From a virus, in IMG/VR virus record IMGVR_UViG_3300032770_000013, positions 31,989 through 95,988 of that record: a stretch of 64,000 bases of DNA, one strand, 5' to 3'. Each line of letters opens with the position of its first letter. Within the stretch, counting starts at the first letter, position 1. Shown here piece by piece: positions 20,393-63,930 of the stretch. The notes beneath the pieces are model-generated. The model did no database searches, was not told where the DNA came from, and saw nothing but the letters and a program-made list of their open reading frames with translations. The position numbers were made by a program, and so were the translations under genes.

Positions 20393-20542
20393 TTACCCGA
20401 CTCCACGCCGCGCCGTTCCGAGGTCAGGATAACGTATTATCTCTTGATGCACGGACAAGTCCACTTCCTCAAGGTTAACGCGCCCAAGCCGATGAGGAAT
20501 AAATCCCCGCCACTCTATCGTGCCTATCCGGTTGTCGCTCAT
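20393..20542 (-). CDS. Stand-alone copy of glycosyltransferase C-terminal domain
   Basis: 49 aa. From residue 9 it aligns with the last 45 residues of the gene at 21597-22784: IEWRGFIPHRLGRVNLEE versus VEWGGFIYAVPHRSGRIYLEE, then HQEIIRYPDL versus HPEIMRYSDL, both ending ARR. ATG 20542 overlaps the TGA of tnpB (ATGA). So TnpB is sandwiched between a full gene and a detached copy of its last domain. This may be a remnant of a paralogue or a functional mini-protein. Confidence 0.65.
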   Translation of the reverse strand: MSDNRIGTIEWRGFIPHRLGRVNLEEVDLSVHQEIIRYPDLGTARRGVG

Positions 20543-21600
20543 TGAGCTACACGTCCCCGGCTTCCCTCAACAGGACCCGCAGCACTACGGGCGAGAATGT
20601 TCTTTGCACTATTGTGGTCACGGTCATGGACCGCACCACATTCATCACAAATCCATTCCCTTATTCGCAACCCTTTTTGACCTTTTGGGCCACTGCGCGC
20701 ACCGCACGCAGAACAGGTTACGGTCGTAAAACTCTCGTTCACTTCCTCATAACCTACTGATTTGTATTTCAGCATGGTACGGAAAGTAGACCAACTAGCA
20801 TCCAGCACGGACTTTGCCATCCGTGTCTGTGCAAGCTGCTTCGCATTGACGTTGCCCACGACGATTAGCGAGTATCGAGCCGCAAGCTCCGTCGAAAGTT
20901 TGTGTAGAAAATCTTGGCGACAGTTTTGGATTTTGATCCACAGACGCCGCGACTTTCGCTGGTTATTGGCGCGCTGAGATTTAGCTATTCGCTGTTCATA
21001 TTGCCGATAATATTGCGGTGCTCCAATCCTGCGGCCATCGCTCAATGTGACGAATGATTTTAGACCGAGATCAATCCCAATAGCTGCATCTCCGCCAATC
21101 CGCTGCTCAACCTCAACATGAAAACAAACATACCAGCGACCCAAGCTATCTTCAACGAAGTAGCCGCCTTTAGCATTCTCAGGAAGCGGTCTGCCGCCTT
21201 CCCAAAATCGATATCTCTTACGAAAATAAGTAATAGTATTGCCTTCAATTTGACGACCTTGATTCTGAAATGGTATCCATCCCAAAGAACGTTTCGCACC
21301 AAAACTTGATCTGAAATTCGGAGCACGTTTAATCTTGTCTCGAGCAACAGCAAACTGCCGACAAACCTCGCCTACACTCTGCTGATTCAAATTCAATATT
21401 TTGCTGACTCCCTTGCAAAGCTTTTGTAGATCATAGTGAGTTGCCCATTTACGAGGCTTCTCACCAGCCCGATAGCGTGCTTGCACGTCAAGTTGTTGAG
21501 CACAGCAGTAATTCCAAACCTGATTAACAGCATAAGCATGTCGCCTCAGCGTCTTTTTGGCTGAGCGATCTTTGATGCGATATTTATAAGTGAGAATCAT
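20539..21600 (-). CDS. tnpB: TnpB RNA-guided nuclease (IS200/IS605 family)
   Basis: 353 aa, the usual TnpB length. An N-terminal HTH-like region (LTYKYRIKDRSAKKTLRRHA) is followed by RuvC-I GIDLGLKSFVTLSDG (catalytic Asp), a bridge segment, then SLIVVGNVNAKQLAQTRMAK at RuvC-II where the usual Glu is absent. A zinc ribbon CSACGARSG...CDECG and RuvC-III HDRDHNSAKNIL follow. No TnpA accompanies it. Its ATG overlaps the preceding stop and its stop overlaps the next ATG, so no obvious left/right ends remain; an omegaRNA would be expected from its 3' end. Confidence 0.9.
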   Translation of the reverse strand: MILTYKYRIKDRSAKKTLRRHAYAVNQVWNYCCAQQLDVQARYRAGEKPRKWATHYDLQKLCKGVSKILNLNQQSVGEVCRQFAVARDKIKRAPNFRSSFGAKRSLGWIPFQNQGRQIEGNTITYFRKRYRFWEGGRPLPENAKGGYFVEDSLGRWYVCFHVEVEQRIGGDAAIGIDLGLKSFVTLSDGRRIGAPQYYRQYEQRIAKSQRANNQRKSRRLWIKIQNCRQDFLHKLSTELAARYSLIVVGNVNAKQLAQTRMAKSVLDASWSTFRTMLKYKSVGYEEVNESFTTVTCSACGARSGPKGQKGLRIREWICDECGAVHDRDHNSAKNILARSAAGPVEGSRGRVAQ

Positions 21601-31968: not shown

Positions 31969-31997
31969 AATATATCCGGGAAATACGAGTATTTCAA
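31969..31997 (-). promoter_or_regulatory. Sigma70-type promoter
   Basis: Leftward: TTGAAA (31992-31997), 17-nt spacer, TATATT (31969-31974); five of six matches in each box. It lies in the 135-nt gap upstream of the gene starting at 31908. Confidence 0.6.
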
Positions 31998-42728: not shown

Positions 42729-43256
42729 TTGGCGCGCGTGCCCAGAAATAAACGGCAGAACGGACGCTTTGCCTCCAAATTCAGGAGAAATGCGATCCGT
42801 TTCCTTTCGCGCAAAGGCTTGATTGCCGCCCGCGGCATCGAGGTCAGCAACAAAGACCTAGTCGAAATCCTCCTGACACTTTTCCCAACTGCTCCCAAAA
42901 CGGGACGCTTCGCCCAATATCAATTTTTCATCGACGCCGTAGGACCGCAAAAGCCGCCCCAATCGGTCATAGATCGTAAGGAACGACAACGATTCTACGA
43001 CTCCGACGAGTGGCGCACGCTTCGTTACAGTGCCCTCTTGCGGCGTAACGGCTGCTGCCAATGCTGCGGCAGACGACCAACGGCGCAAAACCCGCTGCAC
43101 GTTGACCACATCAAGCCGCGCTCAAAATACCCAGAATTAGAACTCGAACTCTCAAACCTCCAAGTTTTGTGCCGAGATTGCAATCTCGGGAAGCGTGCTT
43201 GGGACGAAACGGACTGGCGAGACAATGTCATCGCCTTTCCCAATCCGCGTAGCTGA
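42729..43256 (+). CDS. HNH endonuclease
   Basis: 175 aa. The core in the last 100 residues: FYDSDEWRTLRYSALLRRNGCCQCCGRRP, HVDHIKPRSKYPELELELSNLQVLCRDCNLGK, the standard McrA-like HNH with CxxC/CxxC zinc pair and catalytic DHIKP. The basic N-terminus is specific. The start is uncertain (TTG 42729 or GTG 42738; no clear SD). HNH genes near terminase can assist packaging, but here it may be a homing copy. Confidence 0.85.
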   Translation: MARVPRNKRQNGRFASKFRRNAIRFLSRKGLIAARGIEVSNKDLVEILLTLFPTAPKTGRFAQYQFFIDAVGPQKPPQSVIDRKERQRFYDSDEWRTLRYSALLRRNGCCQCCGRRPTAQNPLHVDHIKPRSKYPELELELSNLQVLCRDCNLGKRAWDETDWRDNVIAFPNPRS

Positions 43257-45720: not shown

Positions 45721-48700
45721 ATGTCCATTGCCAATATTACCCCGAAAGACGATTGGCCGCTCCTCCTAAAGGACAAAGTCTCCCGGCTCGCTATCCTCGA
45801 CCGCCGGTATGAGTATGAGAATAACTTTAGCTTGTTCTTGGAGCAGGCGTGGCCGTCAATGGACGGCTCGCCGTATCAAAAATCTTGGGTTCTGCCGGCA
45901 CTATGCGACCACCTCGAGGCGGTCACGACTGGGCATATTAAACGCCTGCTGGTCAATCTGCCGCCAAGGTGCGGCAAGCCCGTTTGTGAGGACGAGTGGG
46001 TCGTTGAACGTGCACGCGGCCGAATTAGGCTCGCCGATATTAAGGTCGGGGACCTCATTCTCACTCATCGCGGTCGTTTCCGTCGGGTGGCTGAAGTCCA
46101 CCTTCAGGGGATTCTCCCAATCACCAAGATTGAAACTTGGTCTGGCCGCGTAGTACGGGCCGCAGCAGATCATCCCTTTTTGACTACGGAAGGCTGGAAA
46201 GAAGTTCGTGAATTGTTGGTAGGAGATTCGCTGGGCTTAGTATCGCCATTGGAGAATTGCGGCAGTGAGACCTTGCGTCCAGAAGAAGCTCGTCTTTTGG
46301 GATATCTAATAGGTGATGGAAGTATCGCTCAAGGTCAGCCAGGCGTAACAACAGCATCCGTAGGTGTGAGTGATGACGTAAAGGCATGTGCGGCAGCAAT
46401 GGGTTGGCACACAAGGGAGAGTTCCACCCAAAGCAACGCTTGGCTCGTCGTAATTAAACAACATGCTGGAACGACCAGAGGGCCTAACAAATCAGGGTGG
46501 AGACAATGGCTTGAATACCATCGACTATATGGAACGACGAGTTATACGAAGCGCGTGCCGCTGGCTGTAATGGGTGCCTCTAAAGAGATAATTGCGGAAT
46601 TTCTAGGGGCCTATTGGTCTTGCGATGGCCATATCACCGGTCGGGGTAAGCGGGGTGATGGGCGGGAACGCGGCGACTGTGTTGTTGGCTGCGACAGTGT
46701 CAGTCGTGATTTAATGCTGGATGTCCAGCATTTACTTCTGCGACTCGGCATTTTCAGTAGAATACGCCAAAGGCGTGCCAAGATAAAAACCAAACGGCAG
46801 GGCGATGAATACATCTCTTGGTCTCTGACACTAAGCCGGACAGATGATGTTGCGAAGTTCGCAAAAAGGATAAAGCTAGCTCACGAGAAAAGGGTGCGTC
46901 TCGAAAGTCTCGTGCATAGGACCGATTTCGATCGAGCTCTTACTGCTGACCAGATTACTTATATTGAACCCTGCGGTACGGCAGTATGCCGATGCTTAAC
47001 GGTGGAAGACGACGCTTCGTTCACAGCCGCTGATTTTGCAGTCCACAATTCCCTGACGACTTCAATCGCGTGGCCAGCTTGGATCTGGGCTAGAGAACAG
47101 CAGACGTTTGTAAGCGGACCTGGCGTCAAGCTATTAACGGCCAGCTACGGCGCTCATCTTTCGTTAGATCATTCAAACAAAACCAGACAATTGATACTCA
47201 GTCCTTGGTATCAGACTCATTGGGCCGACCGCTTTTCGCTGCGGCAAGATACAAATTCAAAATCGCAATTCGCAAATACGAAAGGCGGCGAACGTCAGGC
47301 AACATCGGTCGGAGGGTCATTGCTTGGCCTAGGGGGTATGATTCTTACAGTCGACGACGCCCACAATGTTGAGACAGAAAAAAAGATAGAGACCGATGCA
47401 GACCGCCGCAGGGTCGCAAGTTGGTGGAAGGAATTACATTCAACGCGCCTCAATGATCCGAAACAGGGCGCAATCGTAGTGATAATGCAAAGGCTGCATC
47501 AATGCCTTGTGAAAGGCACGCCTGTCCGAGTGCCTTCGGGTGAAGCAAAAATTGAGTCTCTCAAAGTGGGAGATCAGGTCTACGGATCGAATGGATGGCA
47601 GCAAATATCGCATGTTGGTTCTCGGCGCTATAAAGGTTTTTCGTATGGCGTCAGAGTTTGCGGTCATTACATTACCTCATGGACGACGAATAATCATTTG
47701 TATTTGACCAAACGTGGGTGGGTAAGAGCGGACGAACTTAAGAAAGCAGATTGGGTTTGTTTGCCAATACTGAAACAAAAAGAAACCTTGGATGTTCCAT
47801 GGGAGCCAGTCAAATGGGCACCTCCGCCGCGAGCGCCGACTGGGAACGCAAAGGCAAATCATAAGAGGCAAACCACAATCAATGAAGCTGAACTGCGTGA
47901 GTTGATTGCTCGCGGTCTAACAAATTGTGAGATCGCGAAACTACTTGGCGTTCATCGTAACACAATCCATAACTCAATGTTTTTCTATCGAATTAATCGA
48001 ATGATGGATCGCAATCCCATTTTTGGAGTGGCCCATCTAGATGATCCTGATTTCTGGCGAGTTGTTGGTTTGTGGATTGCTGAGGGCTCGTTTTGTCTTG
48101 GTAGAGGAAAGATTTGCGGAATAAGATTCACATTTGGCTCTCACGAACCTCATTTCGTCGCGTTTGTGAGAAAAATAATGGGACGATATGGCGTTTCCTC
48201 CTACGGTAAGGTTCCGCATCCAAGTTGTCTTGAGGCGAGTTTGTTTTGTTCGCAACTCGCTAGATGGCTGTGCAAGCATTTTGGGCGCGGCGCGCACAAC
48301 AAACGACTTCCATCGTTCGCATTTTCATTGCCAGAGGCTTATCGTCGCCAAATTTTAGAAGGATGGTTGGATGGCGATGGATGTGTTAGACAGGACGGTG
48401 CGCGACGGGGCTCTACTGTCAGCGTCGCGTTAGTACACGATATGCAGCGTTTAGCTCTTGGTCTTGGATTGCGTTGTTTTATATATAAAAGTCGGAGTTA
48501 CGAAACCATAATAAATGGTCAGAAAGTTACGCCTTGTGGCTATCAATTTGAACTTAGATTTGCTTGGCCGCGGCACAAGAATGCCGTTGCTCCCCAAAGA
48601 TCAATTATTGATGGCGGGTTTCTTTGGTCAAAAGTCGCGTCGATTAAGAAAGAGCCGTATAACGGTAAAGTATATGATATAACGACACCTAGCCACGATT

Positions 48701-51036
48701 TTGTTGTTGGCAATAGCACCGTACACAATAGTGACCTTTCGGGCATCATTCTCGATAGCGACGAGGAATGGGTCCACATGTGTGTGCCCATGTCTTTCGA
48801 TGAGCGGCGCCGCAGCGTAACAGTCGTGCTTCCTCAATACGACGATCCAGAACCTTGGCAAGATCCACGAACCTACGACGGCGAGTTAATGTGGCCAGAA
48901 CGGTTCGATGAAAAAGAGGTGCGGAAACTTGAACACCAACTAGGCCCGTACCTCTCAGCCGGTAGGCTCCAACAAATGCCCGTGCCAAAGGGCGGCGGAA
49001 TCATCAAACGCGACTGGTGGCAATTGTGGGACAAGGACGCAGCTGCACTTTACGGCCTTGAATGGAATCCAAACCTTAAAGAGTTTCCACACTTTGAGCT
49101 CGTATATGCCAGCATCGATACCGCATACGGCGAGAAGGACGAGAACAACTACAATGCCATGACGGTATGGGGCGTGTGGTTGGATCGAAACAAAAACCGC
49201 CGACTCATGCTCATGTTCGGATGGGTCAAGCGGCTCCCGCTTCATGGCCGCGTCATTGCGCAAAAACTCGGCGAGGCGAAAATCAACTTCAAGCAACGTC
49301 AGCAGGCCGAATGGGGATTGGTCGAGCTAATCGCCGATACCTGCAAGCGCTACAAAGTTCAGAGATTGTTAATCGAGAATAAAACCCGCGGTCACGACGT
49401 CGCCAATGAACTTGCCCGCTTGTACGCCCGTGATAATTGGGGCGTTGAAATGATTAATCCAGTGAAGGACAAGGTCTCTCGGGTGCACTCAATTGTCCCA
49501 CTTTTTACCGACAATATGATTTGGGCACCAGAGACGCGCTGGTCCGACGAAATAATCTCCCAAGTTGAAGTGTTTCCCAAAGGGGAGTTCGACGATGCCG
49601 TAGATTCGTGCGTCGCTGGCGACACTGGCATTATAACCTCTAACGGAGTAATTCCGATTTCTGAAATTAAAGTTGGTGACTCAGTTTTGACGCACAAAGG
49701 CAGATTTTGCAAAGTCCTGCGAACTTCATCTAGAATCTCGGATCACTACTATAACTTGAAAGCAAGAGGATTAGAGTTAATTCAAATAACCGGAGAACAT
49801 CCGGCGTATGTTATGACAGTTATTTGCCCAGCCACTTCGGAAAAGTTGTGTGGCGGATTTGGTTGGACGCCAGTTCGTGATCTAGCCCCACGATTGCGCT
49901 ATACTTTCCTTCGTGAAGGAAAGACAGTAAATTCGCAAAAGCGTGGCAATCACGATGCCTTGGTTATCCCTAGGTTTAAGGCTTCGCCTCGAAATAACGC
50001 TTTTATTGATCTTGCATCATTTTGGGGTGAAGAAGTTAAGCGTGATGAAAAAAAGATATATAGAGCGTTTCGGTCAAAGGGACGGTTTACAAAAGAAAAT
50101 GTATCAAAAATTAAATTGCTCTGCAAAACTATTGAACAAAAAGAAGTAGCCAAAATGTTTGGTGTTTCTACTGCTATGATAAGTTTGCTAGTTAATGACC
50201 ATATTGGTCCGTCAAGAAGAGCGCCAGCTTACGCCACTGCTCCAAGATATATTGAACTTAATGCTGAAACTGGATGGGTAATGGGGTTATTCGCGGCCGA
50301 AGGATGTGTTTCAAGACACAATATCATATGGGCTTGTGATAAAAATGGGTTAGAAAAAGTGAGAAAATGGGCAAATCGTACCTTCGATAAGAATTTGTTA
50401 ATTAGAAAAGGCGTTGGTTGCTATAAAACTGTTCTGAGCTCGACCTTGGCTGTTCCGCTTTTCGAAGAATTTGGATATTTAGCCGAAAATAAAATCGTTC
50501 CTCAGTGGGCAATGTGTGCTCCTCCAGACTTTATTCGAGGGTTTGTCGACGGATATGTTTACGGTGATGGCAACCATTACAAAAATCGCACCGTTATGAC
50601 TTCAACATCACGATCTTTGTTATGGGGCATCAGACTAATGCTTTCCCAGCTTGGAAAACCCGCATGGCTCAACATAAGCCGGGAAGCTGGCCCTCGCAAA
50701 GTATTTGGAAAAATATCAAATTGCCTGCGGGCTTATAGCTTGGATTATCTTGAAGCACCAAGCCGACAAGCGATTGTTAGCGACGAATACATTGGCACAC
50801 ATATTGAGAGACTCGAAAGAGTGAATGAGCCGATCACTGTCTATAATCTTTCAGTTGATGAGGATGAAAGTTATGTCACGGTCGGCGGAACCTTTCATAA
50901 TTGCTCCCAAGCGATCAACTGGGCCCGCGAGAACGGCATCGTAGAGCGCGCCGACGAGACCAGCGCGAGTCTGCGGGACGAAATGACTTACAAAGGCCAT
51001 CGGGAATCAGTAGCTCAGGATTATGGAGTTGGGTGA
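45721..51036 (+). CDS. terL: Terminase large subunit precursor with three inteins
   Basis: 1771 codons in one open frame. Extein segments are residues 1-86, 444-594, 1004-1296 and 1728-1771 (574 aa joined), the normal TerL length. Joined motifs: Walker A PPRCGK+SLTTS, Walker B ILTVDD (D545/D546), the QRLHQ+SDLSG segment, nuclease Asp in ASIDTAYG (D1133), Glu in LLIENKTRG (E1219) and FDDAVDS+CSQ (D1291-D1295). It drives ATP-dependent DNA packaging into the capsid and cuts the concatemer. Without splicing, the Walker A motif and nuclease site are split. The stop overlaps the next ATG. Confidence 0.93.
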   Translation: MSIANITPKDDWPLLLKDKVSRLAILDRRYEYENNFSLFLEQAWPSMDGSPYQKSWVLPALCDHLEAVTTGHIKRLLVNLPPRCGKPVCEDEWVVERARGRIRLADIKVGDLILTHRGRFRRVAEVHLQGILPITKIETWSGRVVRAAADHPFLTTEGWKEVRELLVGDSLGLVSPLENCGSETLRPEEARLLGYLIGDGSIAQGQPGVTTASVGVSDDVKACAAAMGWHTRESSTQSNAWLVVIKQHAGTTRGPNKSGWRQWLEYHRLYGTTSYTKRVPLAVMGASKEIIAEFLGAYWSCDGHITGRGKRGDGRERGDCVVGCDSVSRDLMLDVQHLLLRLGIFSRIRQRRAKIKTKRQGDEYISWSLTLSRTDDVAKFAKRIKLAHEKRVRLESLVHRTDFDRALTADQITYIEPCGTAVCRCLTVEDDASFTAADFAVHNSLTTSIAWPAWIWAREQQTFVSGPGVKLLTASYGAHLSLDHSNKTRQLILSPWYQTHWADRFSLRQDTNSKSQFANTKGGERQATSVGGSLLGLGGMILTVDDAHNVETEKKIETDADRRRVASWWKELHSTRLNDPKQGAIVVIMQRLHQCLVKGTPVRVPSGEAKIESLKVGDQVYGSNGWQQISHVGSRRYKGFSYGVRVCGHYITSWTTNNHLYLTKRGWVRADELKKADWVCLPILKQKETLDVPWEPVKWAPPPRAPTGNAKANHKRQTTINEAELRELIARGLTNCEIAKLLGVHRNTIHNSMFFYRINRMMDRNPIFGVAHLDDPDFWRVVGLWIAEGSFCLGRGKICGIRFTFGSHEPHFVAFVRKIMGRYGVSSYGKVPHPSCLEASLFCSQLARWLCKHFGRGAHNKRLPSFAFSLPEAYRRQILEGWLDGDGCVRQDGARRGSTVSVALVHDMQRLALGLGLRCFIYKSRSYETIINGQKVTPCGYQFELRFAWPRHKNAVAPQRSIIDGGFLWSKVASIKKEPYNGKVYDITTPSHDFVVGNSTVHNSDLSGIILDSDEEWVHMCVPMSFDERRRSVTVVLPQYDDPEPWQDPRTYDGELMWPERFDEKEVRKLEHQLGPYLSAGRLQQMPVPKGGGIIKRDWWQLWDKDAAALYGLEWNPNLKEFPHFELVYASIDTAYGEKDENNYNAMTVWGVWLDRNKNRRLMLMFGWVKRLPLHGRVIAQKLGEAKINFKQRQQAEWGLVELIADTCKRYKVQRLLIENKTRGHDVANELARLYARDNWGVEMINPVKDKVSRVHSIVPLFTDNMIWAPETRWSDEIISQVEVFPKGEFDDAVDSCVAGDTGIITSNGVIPISEIKVGDSVLTHKGRFCKVLRTSSRISDHYYNLKARGLELIQITGEHPAYVMTVICPATSEKLCGGFGWTPVRDLAPRLRYTFLREGKTVNSQKRGNHDALVIPRFKASPRNNAFIDLASFWGEEVKRDEKKIYRAFRSKGRFTKENVSKIKLLCKTIEQKEVAKMFGVSTAMISLLVNDHIGPSRRAPAYATAPRYIELNAETGWVMGLFAAEGCVSRHNIIWACDKNGLEKVRKWANRTFDKNLLIRKGVGCYKTVLSSTLAVPLFEEFGYLAENKIVPQWAMCAPPDFIRGFVDGYVYGDGNHYKNRTVMTSTSRSLLWGIRLMLSQLGKPAWLNISREAGPRKVFGKISNCLRAYSLDYLEAPSRQAIVSDEYIGTHIERLERVNEPITVYNLSVDEDESYVTVGGTFHNCSQAINWARENGIVERADETSASLRDEMTYKGHRESVAQDYGVG
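45979..47049 (+). other. Intein 1 in TerL (Walker A; class 3-like, LAGLIDADG)
   Basis: Residues 87-443 (357 aa). Excision must start at Pro87 to restore GK-Ser, so the first intein residue is not a nucleophile. Block B has HPFLTTEGW (Trp159), block F CRCLTVEDD (Cys425), the C-terminus is VHN and +1 is Ser: features of class 3 inteins. The homing part carries LLGYLIGDG (192-200) and AYWSCDG (297-303). Splicing start at Cys89 would leave Pro-Val in the P-loop and is less likely. Confidence 0.8.
47503..48729 (+). other. Intein 2 in TerL (post-ATPase segment)
   Basis: Residues 595-1003 (409 aa): Cys1, block B TTNNHLYLT, block F KVYDITTPSHDF, C-terminal VHN, +1 Ser. The LAGLIDADG pair is VVGLWIAEG (781-789) and LEGWLDGDG (878-886). 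An HTH insert (721-755, ELRELIARGLTNCEIAKLLG) precedes the endonuclease part. Exteins join as QRLHQ-SDLSG, the normal TerL sequence. Confidence 0.88.
49609..50901 (+). other. Intein 3 in TerL (nuclease active site)
   Basis: Residues 1297-1727 (431 aa): Cys1 (CVAGDTGI), block B TGEHPAYVMT, block F TVYNLSVDEDESY, C-terminal FHN, +1 Cys. The LAGLIDADG-like pair is MGLFAAEG (1521-1528) and IRGFVDG (1605-1611). An HTH-like insert lies at 1461-1495 (KEVAKMFGVSTAMISLLV). Visibly AT-richer than the exteins, a sign of recent acquisition. Confidence 0.88.
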
Positions 51037-62407: not shown

Positions 62408-62926
62408 CTATCCCGGAAACAGGATCAACCCGCCCTCGCTTATCAGAATTTGACCGGATTCGGAAATCAGATACGGATGCGGCGGCCACGGTAAAACAGG
62501 AATCGCCGGATTAACCGGTGCCGGCAATGCCGCTCCCGCTGGATACGGAAGGTACTGAATTATCCGCTCCGTCTCTCCATTCTGGTTCGCCCGTAATATC
62601 GCAGGCCCCGCTCCCCACGGCGGATTGTCCGGCGAGTTGTACTCGATGATCCGGACGGTCTGCTCTTCGTAGGAGAAGAAGGGCACGCGAGAATTAAATA
62701 TGGGCGGCGGATCTGGCTCGAGCACAATTGTCCGGAGCTGCTCATTGGGCACATCAAGGCATTCCCAGCAGCGCAGAGAACCAAACTGAAAAATCCGGTT
62801 TCCAGCCCACTCAGATTGAAAATTCATTTCGCGCAGCGGCCACCAACGGCCGCAAAGATCGCATTGGCCGGCTGACTGAGGATTAAGAGCATCGACCTTA
62901 GTATGTTTGCTCATAGGCCGACTCAT
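62408..62926 (-). CDS. Virion protein with zinc-ribbon start
   Basis: 172 aa. GQCDLCGRWWPLREMNFQSEW...LRCWECLDVP is a CxxC...CxxC ribbon; the rest is Pro-rich and ends PYLISESGQILISEGG. Seen in podovirus structural operons as small virion components. Its stop and start abut its neighbours. Confidence 0.6.
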   Translation of the reverse strand: MSRPMSKHTKVDALNPQSAGQCDLCGRWWPLREMNFQSEWAGNRIFQFGSLRCWECLDVPNEQLRTIVLEPDPPPIFNSRVPFFSYEEQTVRIIEYNSPDNPPWGAGPAILRANQNGETERIIQYLPYPAGAALPAPVNPAIPVLPWPPHPYLISESGQILISEGGLILFPG

Positions 62927-63930
62927 GCGGCATTCTCCAAATAAGAGAAGGACAAGCCAGACGTCGTCGGCTTACCACTGCGACATGCTTCGTAAATCAT
63001 CCAAGATGAAAGTCCCGTAGCATGCACGGCCGCACTATTGTTTGCGAAGACCTCTCCTGTATCGAGGCGGATAACTGGATAGCTGCGTTTCTTGGAAAGC
63101 TTATCTTTCCACCCAGTTTTTATTTTCTGACTTTTTTCAATCGCAGCCGCGAGAGCGATTTGTCTTTCTGGCTCTGACAGCGCGCCAAACATAAAAAACA
63201 GGCCGCTATGATGTGTTCGTCCATGGATGCAGATATACGAGACTGTATTGCGCAACAGTCCTAGAGCCTTATCGGCAGCCATTGCACTTGGGTAAACTAT
63301 CCCTGTATTCAGACACGTAACCTGCCGTCCGTTTTTCTTGGCTACCTTTTCAACTCGCGCTCGCTCGGCAGTGAACTTGTGCTGTTTGAAATCAGCGAGA
63401 AGAGCGAATCTCTGGTCTTCGGTCAGATGCTCGCTAGCATACCTAAAGCCTAGACCTGTTCTAGTTAAACCGATGTGTTCACATAGGTAAGAAACTTGTG
63501 GCTTGCTCAAACCATAAGCCCGAGCGGTTGCTCTAATGCTTGGATAGATCTTGCCGTCGTTTAGACACAAGACTGGCTTGCCTGTTTCCTTCGCTCTCGC
63601 CTGAGAAAATTCCCTCTGTTTGATTTTTGAGGTGAATACCAGCCCACCAGATGCGATGTTGTATTCTGGATCGAGCAGGGCAATGAGCCGCTCTTCTTCT
63701 TTGTACATCTCCTCGGACGTCAGCAGTGTAGCTAACGTCGTCCACTCAAAAGCTTCTCGACCATACTTGCGGATTGCATCGTAAAAACGTGGGCAATCAC
63801 GAGCTTTACGTCTGGCGTCCTTGAAATGCTGTTCGGCTCGCGCCTCTCTGCCAAGTCGCGTTGCGCCGATATAGCGCTTGCCGTTTATTTTGTTGGTTGC
63901 CATATAGACAGTGAAAGTGTGTTCTGTCAC
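62923..63930 (-). CDS. GIY-YIG homing endonuclease with three NUMOD1-like repeats
   Basis: 335 aa. N-terminal GIY-YIG: FTVYMATNKINGKRYIGATRLG, YGREAFEWTTLA, EEERLIALLDPEYNIASGG. C-terminal part has three copies of a NUMOD1/IENR1 DNA-binding unit: KPVLCLNDGKIYPSIRATAR, RQVTCLNTGIVYPSAMAADK and YPVIRLDTGEVFANNSAAV, each followed by a GLGFRY-like close. GTG start 63930. Stands between two virion genes, one on the window edge. Confidence 0.9.
   Translation of the reverse strand: MTEHTFTVYMATNKINGKRYIGATRLGREARAEQHFKDARRKARDCPRFYDAIRKYGREAFEWTTLATLLTSEEMYKEEERLIALLDPEYNIASGGLVFTSKIKQREFSQARAKETGKPVLCLNDGKIYPSIRATARAYGLSKPQVSYLCEHIGLTRTGLGFRYASEHLTEDQRFALLADFKQHKFTAERARVEKVAKKNGRQVTCLNTGIVYPSAMAADKALGLLRNTVSYICIHGRTHHSGLFFMFGALSEPERQIALAAAIEKSQKIKTGWKDKLSKKRSYPVIRLDTGEVFANNSAAVHATGLSSWMIYEACRSGKPTTSGLSFSYLENAA

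Follow-up and report, generated by a model that had tools for sequence, protein, structure and literature searches.

A Pro1 intein in a phage terminase P-loop with probable class 3-like splicing and no WCT signature

TerL, the large terminase subunit, is required for DNA packaging, and an intein within it must therefore be removed. The locus described here carries an intein in the Walker A P-loop of TerL, and its first residue is proline. The linear thioester of class 1 splicing is impossible without a Cys, Ser or Thr at position 1. Which route could this intein take, and from which intein lineage does it come?

The whole stretch of DNA analysed, here called the window, comprises 64,000 nt (positions 31,989 to 95,988 of IMGVR_UViG_3300032770_000013, a 96 kb linear virus record). 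On its plus strand, positions 45721 to 51036 form a single open frame of 1771 aa, and the spliced protein matches the PHROG 38 terminase large subunit with an E-value of 5e-76. The second and third inteins of the gene both have a Cys start; the second (47503 to 48729) is in the ATPase domain, after RLHQ (VHN^S), and the third (49609 to 50901) interrupts the nuclease domain at DAVDS^C (FHN^C). It seems unusual for a single terminase to hold three inteins. Elsewhere, the window holds a transposase (20539 to 21600), an HNH endonuclease (42729 to 43256) and a homing endonuclease gene (62923 to 63930). The features of the TerL gene and of its first intein (intein 1) are listed below, all on the plus strand, with their basis in brackets.

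45721 to 51036, plus strand: TerL gene (terminase large subunit) with three inteins (spliced product against PHROG 38; Terminase_6C match)
45979 to 47049, plus strand: intein 1, 357 aa, Pro1 to Asn357 (TerL Pro87 to Asn443), at GK^S of the Walker A P-loop (excision, AlphaFold model, intein-free TerL)
45979 to 45981, plus strand: Pro1 (TerL Pro87), a first residue that is no nucleophile (54 aligned relatives; intein-free TerL)
45985 to 45987, plus strand: Cys3 (Cys89), alternative start (residue not conserved in relatives)
46162 to 46164, plus strand: Ala62 of the intein, block B position 7 (B:7), Thr in class 1 (alignment)
46171 to 46173, plus strand: His151, block B His (B:10) (invariant in all 138 aligned inteins)
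46177 to 46179, plus strand: Phe153, block B position 12 (B:12), Trp in WCT class 3 (alignment, MchDnaB1 numbering)
46195 to 46197, plus strand: Trp159 at His+8, a Trp typical of class 1 and not the WCT Trp (alignment)
46294 to 46320, plus strand: LAGLIDADG motif 1 (LLGYLIGDG) of the homing endonuclease domain (PF14528; alignment)
46600 to 46629, plus strand: LAGLIDADG motif 2 (FLGAYWSCDG) (PF14528; alignment)
46987 to 46989, plus strand: Cys423, block F position 2 (F:2), first Cys of a CxC motif (Cys in 52/54 relatives, 2/59 class 1)
46993 to 46995, plus strand: Cys425, block F position 4 (F:4), proposed initiating nucleophile (Cys in 54/54 relatives; mostly Asp in class 1)
47041 to 47049, plus strand: block G, with Val441 (G:5), His442 and Asn443, the C-terminal Asn (excision, alignment)
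47050 to 47052, plus strand: Ser444, +1 residue of the C-extein and Ser of the P-loop (excision, intein-free TerL)

Excision of residues 87 to 443, the last codon being that of Asn443 and ending at 47049, gives the P-loop LPPRCGK^SLTT. The K^S junction is contiguous, with no insert, in two intein-free TerL homologues, MW202675 (PPGTMK^SLL) and CRP-902 (PPRHMK^SIS), which are about 40-43% identical and whose alignments cover the whole spliced protein. Intein 1 scores above the cut-off for PF14890 (intein splicing) and has blocks A, B, F and G, an HN end, a +1 residue of the Ser/Thr/Cys set and a HINT fold. An AlphaFold model built from a 16-sequence alignment (mean pLDDT 90.9) aligns over residues 1 to 357 with solved PDB inteins, from residue 1 to the end, at Z 21-32. 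The match to TliVMA reaches Z 31.7; class 1 mini-inteins score about 21, with an rmsd mostly of 1.2-1.9 Å, and the class 3 structures 6bs8 and 6riy score 19.5 and 18.8, a gap between about 21 and about 19 that is too small to decide ancestry. An earlier sequence-only reading had placed the insertion at Pro87 to Asn443 with Ser444 at +1 and had suggested a structure prediction; excision, the empty sites and the model alignment all bear out these boundaries.

The Pro1 start can be set against a start at Cys89, which would make intein 1 a class 1 intein and leave Pro-Val within the P-loop. Cys89 does sit only three residues in, and Cys3 recurs in Mesorhizobium phage Cp1R7A-A1 and in L027, but most relatives have no Cys at residue 3, and both the model and the alignments set Pro at position 1. 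The intein-free TerL proteins carry no Pro-Val insertion of the kind that a Cys89 start would call for. Moreover, the first five residues of many relatives contain no Cys, Ser or Thr (PVHEDE, PGWVEN, PLHVDT), so that Pro1 is position 1. With Pro-Val left behind in the P-loop by a Cys89 start, and with Cys89 missing in most relatives, we take Pro87 as residue 1 and regard the Cys89 start as scarcely credible. The boundaries of intein 1 and its Pro1 start are confirmed.

The defining features of class 3 inteins are the triplet Trp B:12, Cys F:4 and Thr G:5 (WCT), a non-nucleophilic residue 1 and Ser/Thr at +1 (PMC5222942, PMC7664689). In MchDnaB1 the corresponding residues are His65 (B:10), Trp67, Cys124 and Thr143 (PMC7664689), and since His65 is followed by Trp67, B:12 is the residue at His+2. 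Trp159, which had been put forward as the block B Trp of class 3, lies at His+8 and aligns instead with the Trp of the class 1 'T..GW' motif, as in Ssp DnaB (ANHRFLTIDGW); the true B:12 of intein 1 is Phe153. The His+8 column holds Trp in 55/59 class 1 inteins, 54/54 members of the family of intein 1 and 5/25 WCT inteins. Cys425, proposed at the same time as the block F Cys, does fall at F:4, and the Val noted before HN is G:5 (Val441), with the block G Thr absent. The triplet of intein 1 is thus F-C-V, with the cysteine as its sole WCT match.

The alignment with class 3 inteins that had been suggested as a check splits: Cys425 fits F:4, and Phe153 and Val441 do not fit B:12 and G:5. Intein 1 shares with WCT class 3 the lack of Cys, Ser or Thr at position 1 (Pro87), Cys425 at F:4 and Ser444 at +1, and lacks Trp B:12 and Thr G:5. 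It falls within the broad class 3 definition of PMC7891396 (no Cys1, Cys F:4) and, with Pro87, outside class 1, which has Cys, Ser or Thr at position 1. Class 2 inteins are likewise without Cys1 and pass through a single branched intermediate, but known members have Cys+1, which attacks directly, Ala1, Asp F:4 and Ser G:6 (PMC4031507); intein 1 has Ser+1, Pro1 and Cys F:4, its family is mostly Ser+1 with an unvarying Cys F:4, and we consider a class 2-type reading improbable. By the WCT signature, intein 1 does not count as canonical class 3. It is likely class 3-like in mechanism, and it is probably not class 3 by descent. Of the class 3 assignment first proposed, Pro1, Cys F:4 and Ser+1 stand, whereas Trp B:12 and Thr G:5 are absent and trees place the family with class 1.

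Searches with single proteins yielded few relatives, and alignment-based searches performed better. We collected 54 distinct relatives and about 18 more, mostly from TerL P-loops and some from DnaB-type helicases. In protein searches, relatives came from Caulobacter, Brevundimonas and Mesorhizobium phages, where they occupy the TerL P-loop, from many IMG/VR contigs and from one Nostoc and one Hyphomonadaceae assembly. Two members lie in helicase ATPase P-loops (L011, Prim-Pol/DnaB_C; L251, DnaB-like). The family uses two insertion sites, K^S/T and PPG^T/S/C, both in the same P-loop, and includes mini-inteins without an endonuclease (L258 and L267, 134 aa each; L276, 152 aa).

Among the 54 members, position 1 is Pro in 49, Glu in 3, Gln in 1 and Asp in 1, and the +1 residue, readable in 53, is Ser (41), Thr (10) or Cys (2). 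Cys F:4 is present in all 54 and Cys F:2 in 52. Position B:12 is F in 38, Y in 6, V in 5, L in 4 and I in 1, and G:5 is V in 53 and I in 1; Trp B:12 and Thr G:5 occur in none of them. Loss of Thr B:7 is seen in 50/54, and His B:10 is always retained. Some scans were keyed on the N-terminus; a further scan keyed on block F/G alone (pattern CRCL[TSF]V) returned about 18 further members whose N-terminus could be read, each beginning with Pro, the start of L263 being unclear. No intermediate combining Cys1 with Cys F:4 was found within the family, including in the block F/G-only scan. Groups in the residue table were defined by their F:4 and G:5 residues, and the statement that class 1 has Cys1 holds partly by construction, as the first residue of some class 1 rows was set as the nearest Cys; the link between Cys F:4 and Pro1 inside the family is unaffected by how these rows were set. 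Judged by these sequences, the Pro1 family is a coherent phage family, mostly Pro1, with an F/Y/V/L/I-C-V triplet.

The CxC motif of block F (46987 to 46995) was also compared across groups; its F:2 Cys occurs in 52/54 of the Pro1 family, 10/25 WCT inteins and 2/59 class 1 inteins. Cys F:2 may act as a helper or redox switch for Cys F:4.

The boundaries, the family, the invariant Cys F:4, the missing W and T and the tree placement are read from sequence. We infer splicing itself, the role of Cys F:4 as nucleophile, where the branch forms and in which order the steps run, as follows. Cys425, at the position of the class 1 Asp, would attack the Lys86-Pro87 peptide bond with the aid of His151, forming a block F branched thioester on Cys425. 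The N-extein would then be transferred to Ser+1, Asn443 would cyclise, and an O-to-N shift would ligate the exteins to restore PPRCGKS. Splicing through the block F cysteine had been suggested from the outset, and Cys425 remains the likely initiator, as it is invariant in 54/54 relatives, all of which lack Cys, Ser or Thr at position 1.

Published work bears on this scheme from several sides. In class 3 structures, Cys F:4 sits between the two splice junctions, where class 1 inteins have Asp F:4; Thr B:7 spring-loads residue 1 in class 1, and class 3 inteins are generally without it (PMC6195587), a loss that the Pro1 family parallels. The AceL NrdHF intein, a class 3 intein with Met at B:12 (MCT), splices, and it tolerates loss of Thr G:5 at a tenfold slower rate (PMC7891396). 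Since AceL NrdHF splices without Trp B:12 and tolerates Thr G:5 loss, an F-C-V site is chemically plausible. Cys F:4 is also found in some class 1 inteins (PMC3196547) and is therefore not diagnostic on its own. A gp41-1 intein grafted with C1A, F65W and D107C showed no efficient splicing (PMC7664689), which we count against the class 3-like explanation. That intein 1 is dead, in a defective phage gene, has a precedent in a class 3 pseudogene (PMC3196547), but the frame is intact, none of the catalytic residues and neither of the LAGLIDADG acidic residues has been lost, and the family is conserved across cultured phages, which makes this very improbable.

The ancestry of the family was examined by profile search and by trees, with Phrappuccino TerL, its IMG/VR relatives and PDB chains as WCT references. 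A profile built from nine family members matched the class 1 chains Npu DnaB (4o1r, 1.7e-13), Ssp DnaB (1mi8, 1.1e-11) and Mtu RecA (1e-11), gp41-1 at 3e-7 and the WCT-grafted gp41-1 mutant at 1e-8; class 3 chains did no better than 1e-3 (6rix). Maximum-likelihood trees of the splicing domain were built with position 1, B:7, B:12, F:2, F:4 and G:5 removed, on only about 135 usable columns, and rows with long branches (L097, L199, L058, L003, L095, L234, L233, L151) were dropped from some of them. The Pro1 family formed a single group with support of 99/96, 95/95 and then 57/95 in three successive trees. In the first, WCT inteins plus gp41-1 were split from the Pro1 family plus other class 1 inteins at 100/96. 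The N-terminal register of block A, considered as a marker of class 1 versus class 3, was discarded, as some WCT inteins (L008, L057) share the register.

Intein 1 could also be a divergent member of a single WCT lineage, with Trp B:12 and Thr G:5 since lost and the mechanism unchanged. Cys F:4, the non-nucleophilic position 1, Ser/Thr at +1 and the loss of Thr B:7 are common to both groups, and triplet variants exist: AceL NrdHF is MCT and functional (PMC7891396), and L081, L088 and their kin are F-C-N. In the first dataset, where gp41-1 was the sole class 1 row near WCT, the AU test did not reject a joint clade of all Cys F:4 inteins (p 0.285). Against shared descent, both the profile and the trees put the Pro1 family with class 1, the class 1-type Trp at His+8 is retained in 54/54, and the joint clade was rejected in the second dataset (p 0.043; class 1 inteins L230, L232 and L003 added) and in the third (p 0.024; long branches removed), the significant results having arisen after extra class 1 rows were added. 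We regard descent from the WCT lineage as unlikely, though clearly less so than the other alternatives. Independent derivation of the Pro1 family from outside the WCT clade is favoured, not proven, as the most likely reading of these sequences; the route from class 1 would have involved loss of Cys1, loss of Thr B:7 and a change of Asp F:4 to Cys.

We therefore consider it probable, with good though incomplete confidence, that intein 1 splices in a class 3-like manner through Cys425 and belongs to a Pro1 family most likely derived from class 1 independently of the WCT clade. A wider proposal, on which we are evenly divided, is that class 1 inteins gave rise to the block F Cys mechanism on at least two occasions, the Pro1 family (F-C-V, near-invariant CxC) being an independent case that splices without the WCT signature and in which Cys F:2 tunes or redox-regulates the catalytic Cys.

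Two further cases were noted. L081, L083, L086, L088 and L089 form a class 3-like subgroup at GGGK^T whose triplet is F-C-N (Phe B:12, Cys F:4, Asn G:5). L231, from an RNA ligase of Staphylococcus phage Alsa_1, has Ala1, Ile B:12, Cys F:4 and Thr G:5 and groups with class 1 gp41-1 (99/94); it may have switched to a block F cysteine in a further, separate event.

Class 3 has been held to be monophyletic and WCT-defined (PMC3196547, PMC4031507), with W and T deviations in a few per cent (PMC7891396), and it has been argued that class 1 cannot turn directly into class 3, since the WCT plus C1A graft into gp41-1 failed (PMC7664689). If the Pro1 family splices and the tree stands, both the monophyly and the barrier are contradicted. 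A natural, widespread Pro1/Cys F:4 family on a class 1-like scaffold, with Phe B:12 and Val G:5, would serve as a counter-example, and it brings the question within reach of experiment; the 134 aa mini-inteins L258 and L267 are handy for assays, and Pro1 inteins for protein engineering could come from this family.

Among known inteins, the phiCbK TerL intein was described in 2012 by Gill et al. with a K130^P131 junction and Pro1 (PMC3556154). The Pro1 start was thus already known for phiCbK; that description covered neither the signature residues nor the class. This intein and its Caulobacter phage relatives belong to the same family as intein 1 and share its K^S site, Pro1, Cys F:4, Val G:5 and Ser+1, but are without clear LAGLIDADG motifs and about 30% identical to it. 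The WCT class 3 inteins MP-Be DnaB, Msm DnaBi1 and Mch DnaB1 resemble intein 1 in having no nucleophile at position 1, Cys F:4, Ser/Thr at +1 and no Thr B:7, and differ from it in having Trp B:12 and Thr G:5 and in tree position, the Pro1 family lying with class 1. AceL NrdHF, for which a class 3 mechanism has been demonstrated without Trp B:12 (M-C-T; PMC7891396), likewise lacks this Trp but retains Thr G:5, is split and has a different sequence. The class 1 inteins Ssp and Npu DnaB and Mtu RecA are the closest solved structures by profile and have the His+8 Trp and Val G:5 in common with intein 1, whereas the typical class 1 Cys1, Thr B:7 and Asp F:4 are replaced in intein 1 by Pro1, Ala B:7 and Cys F:4.
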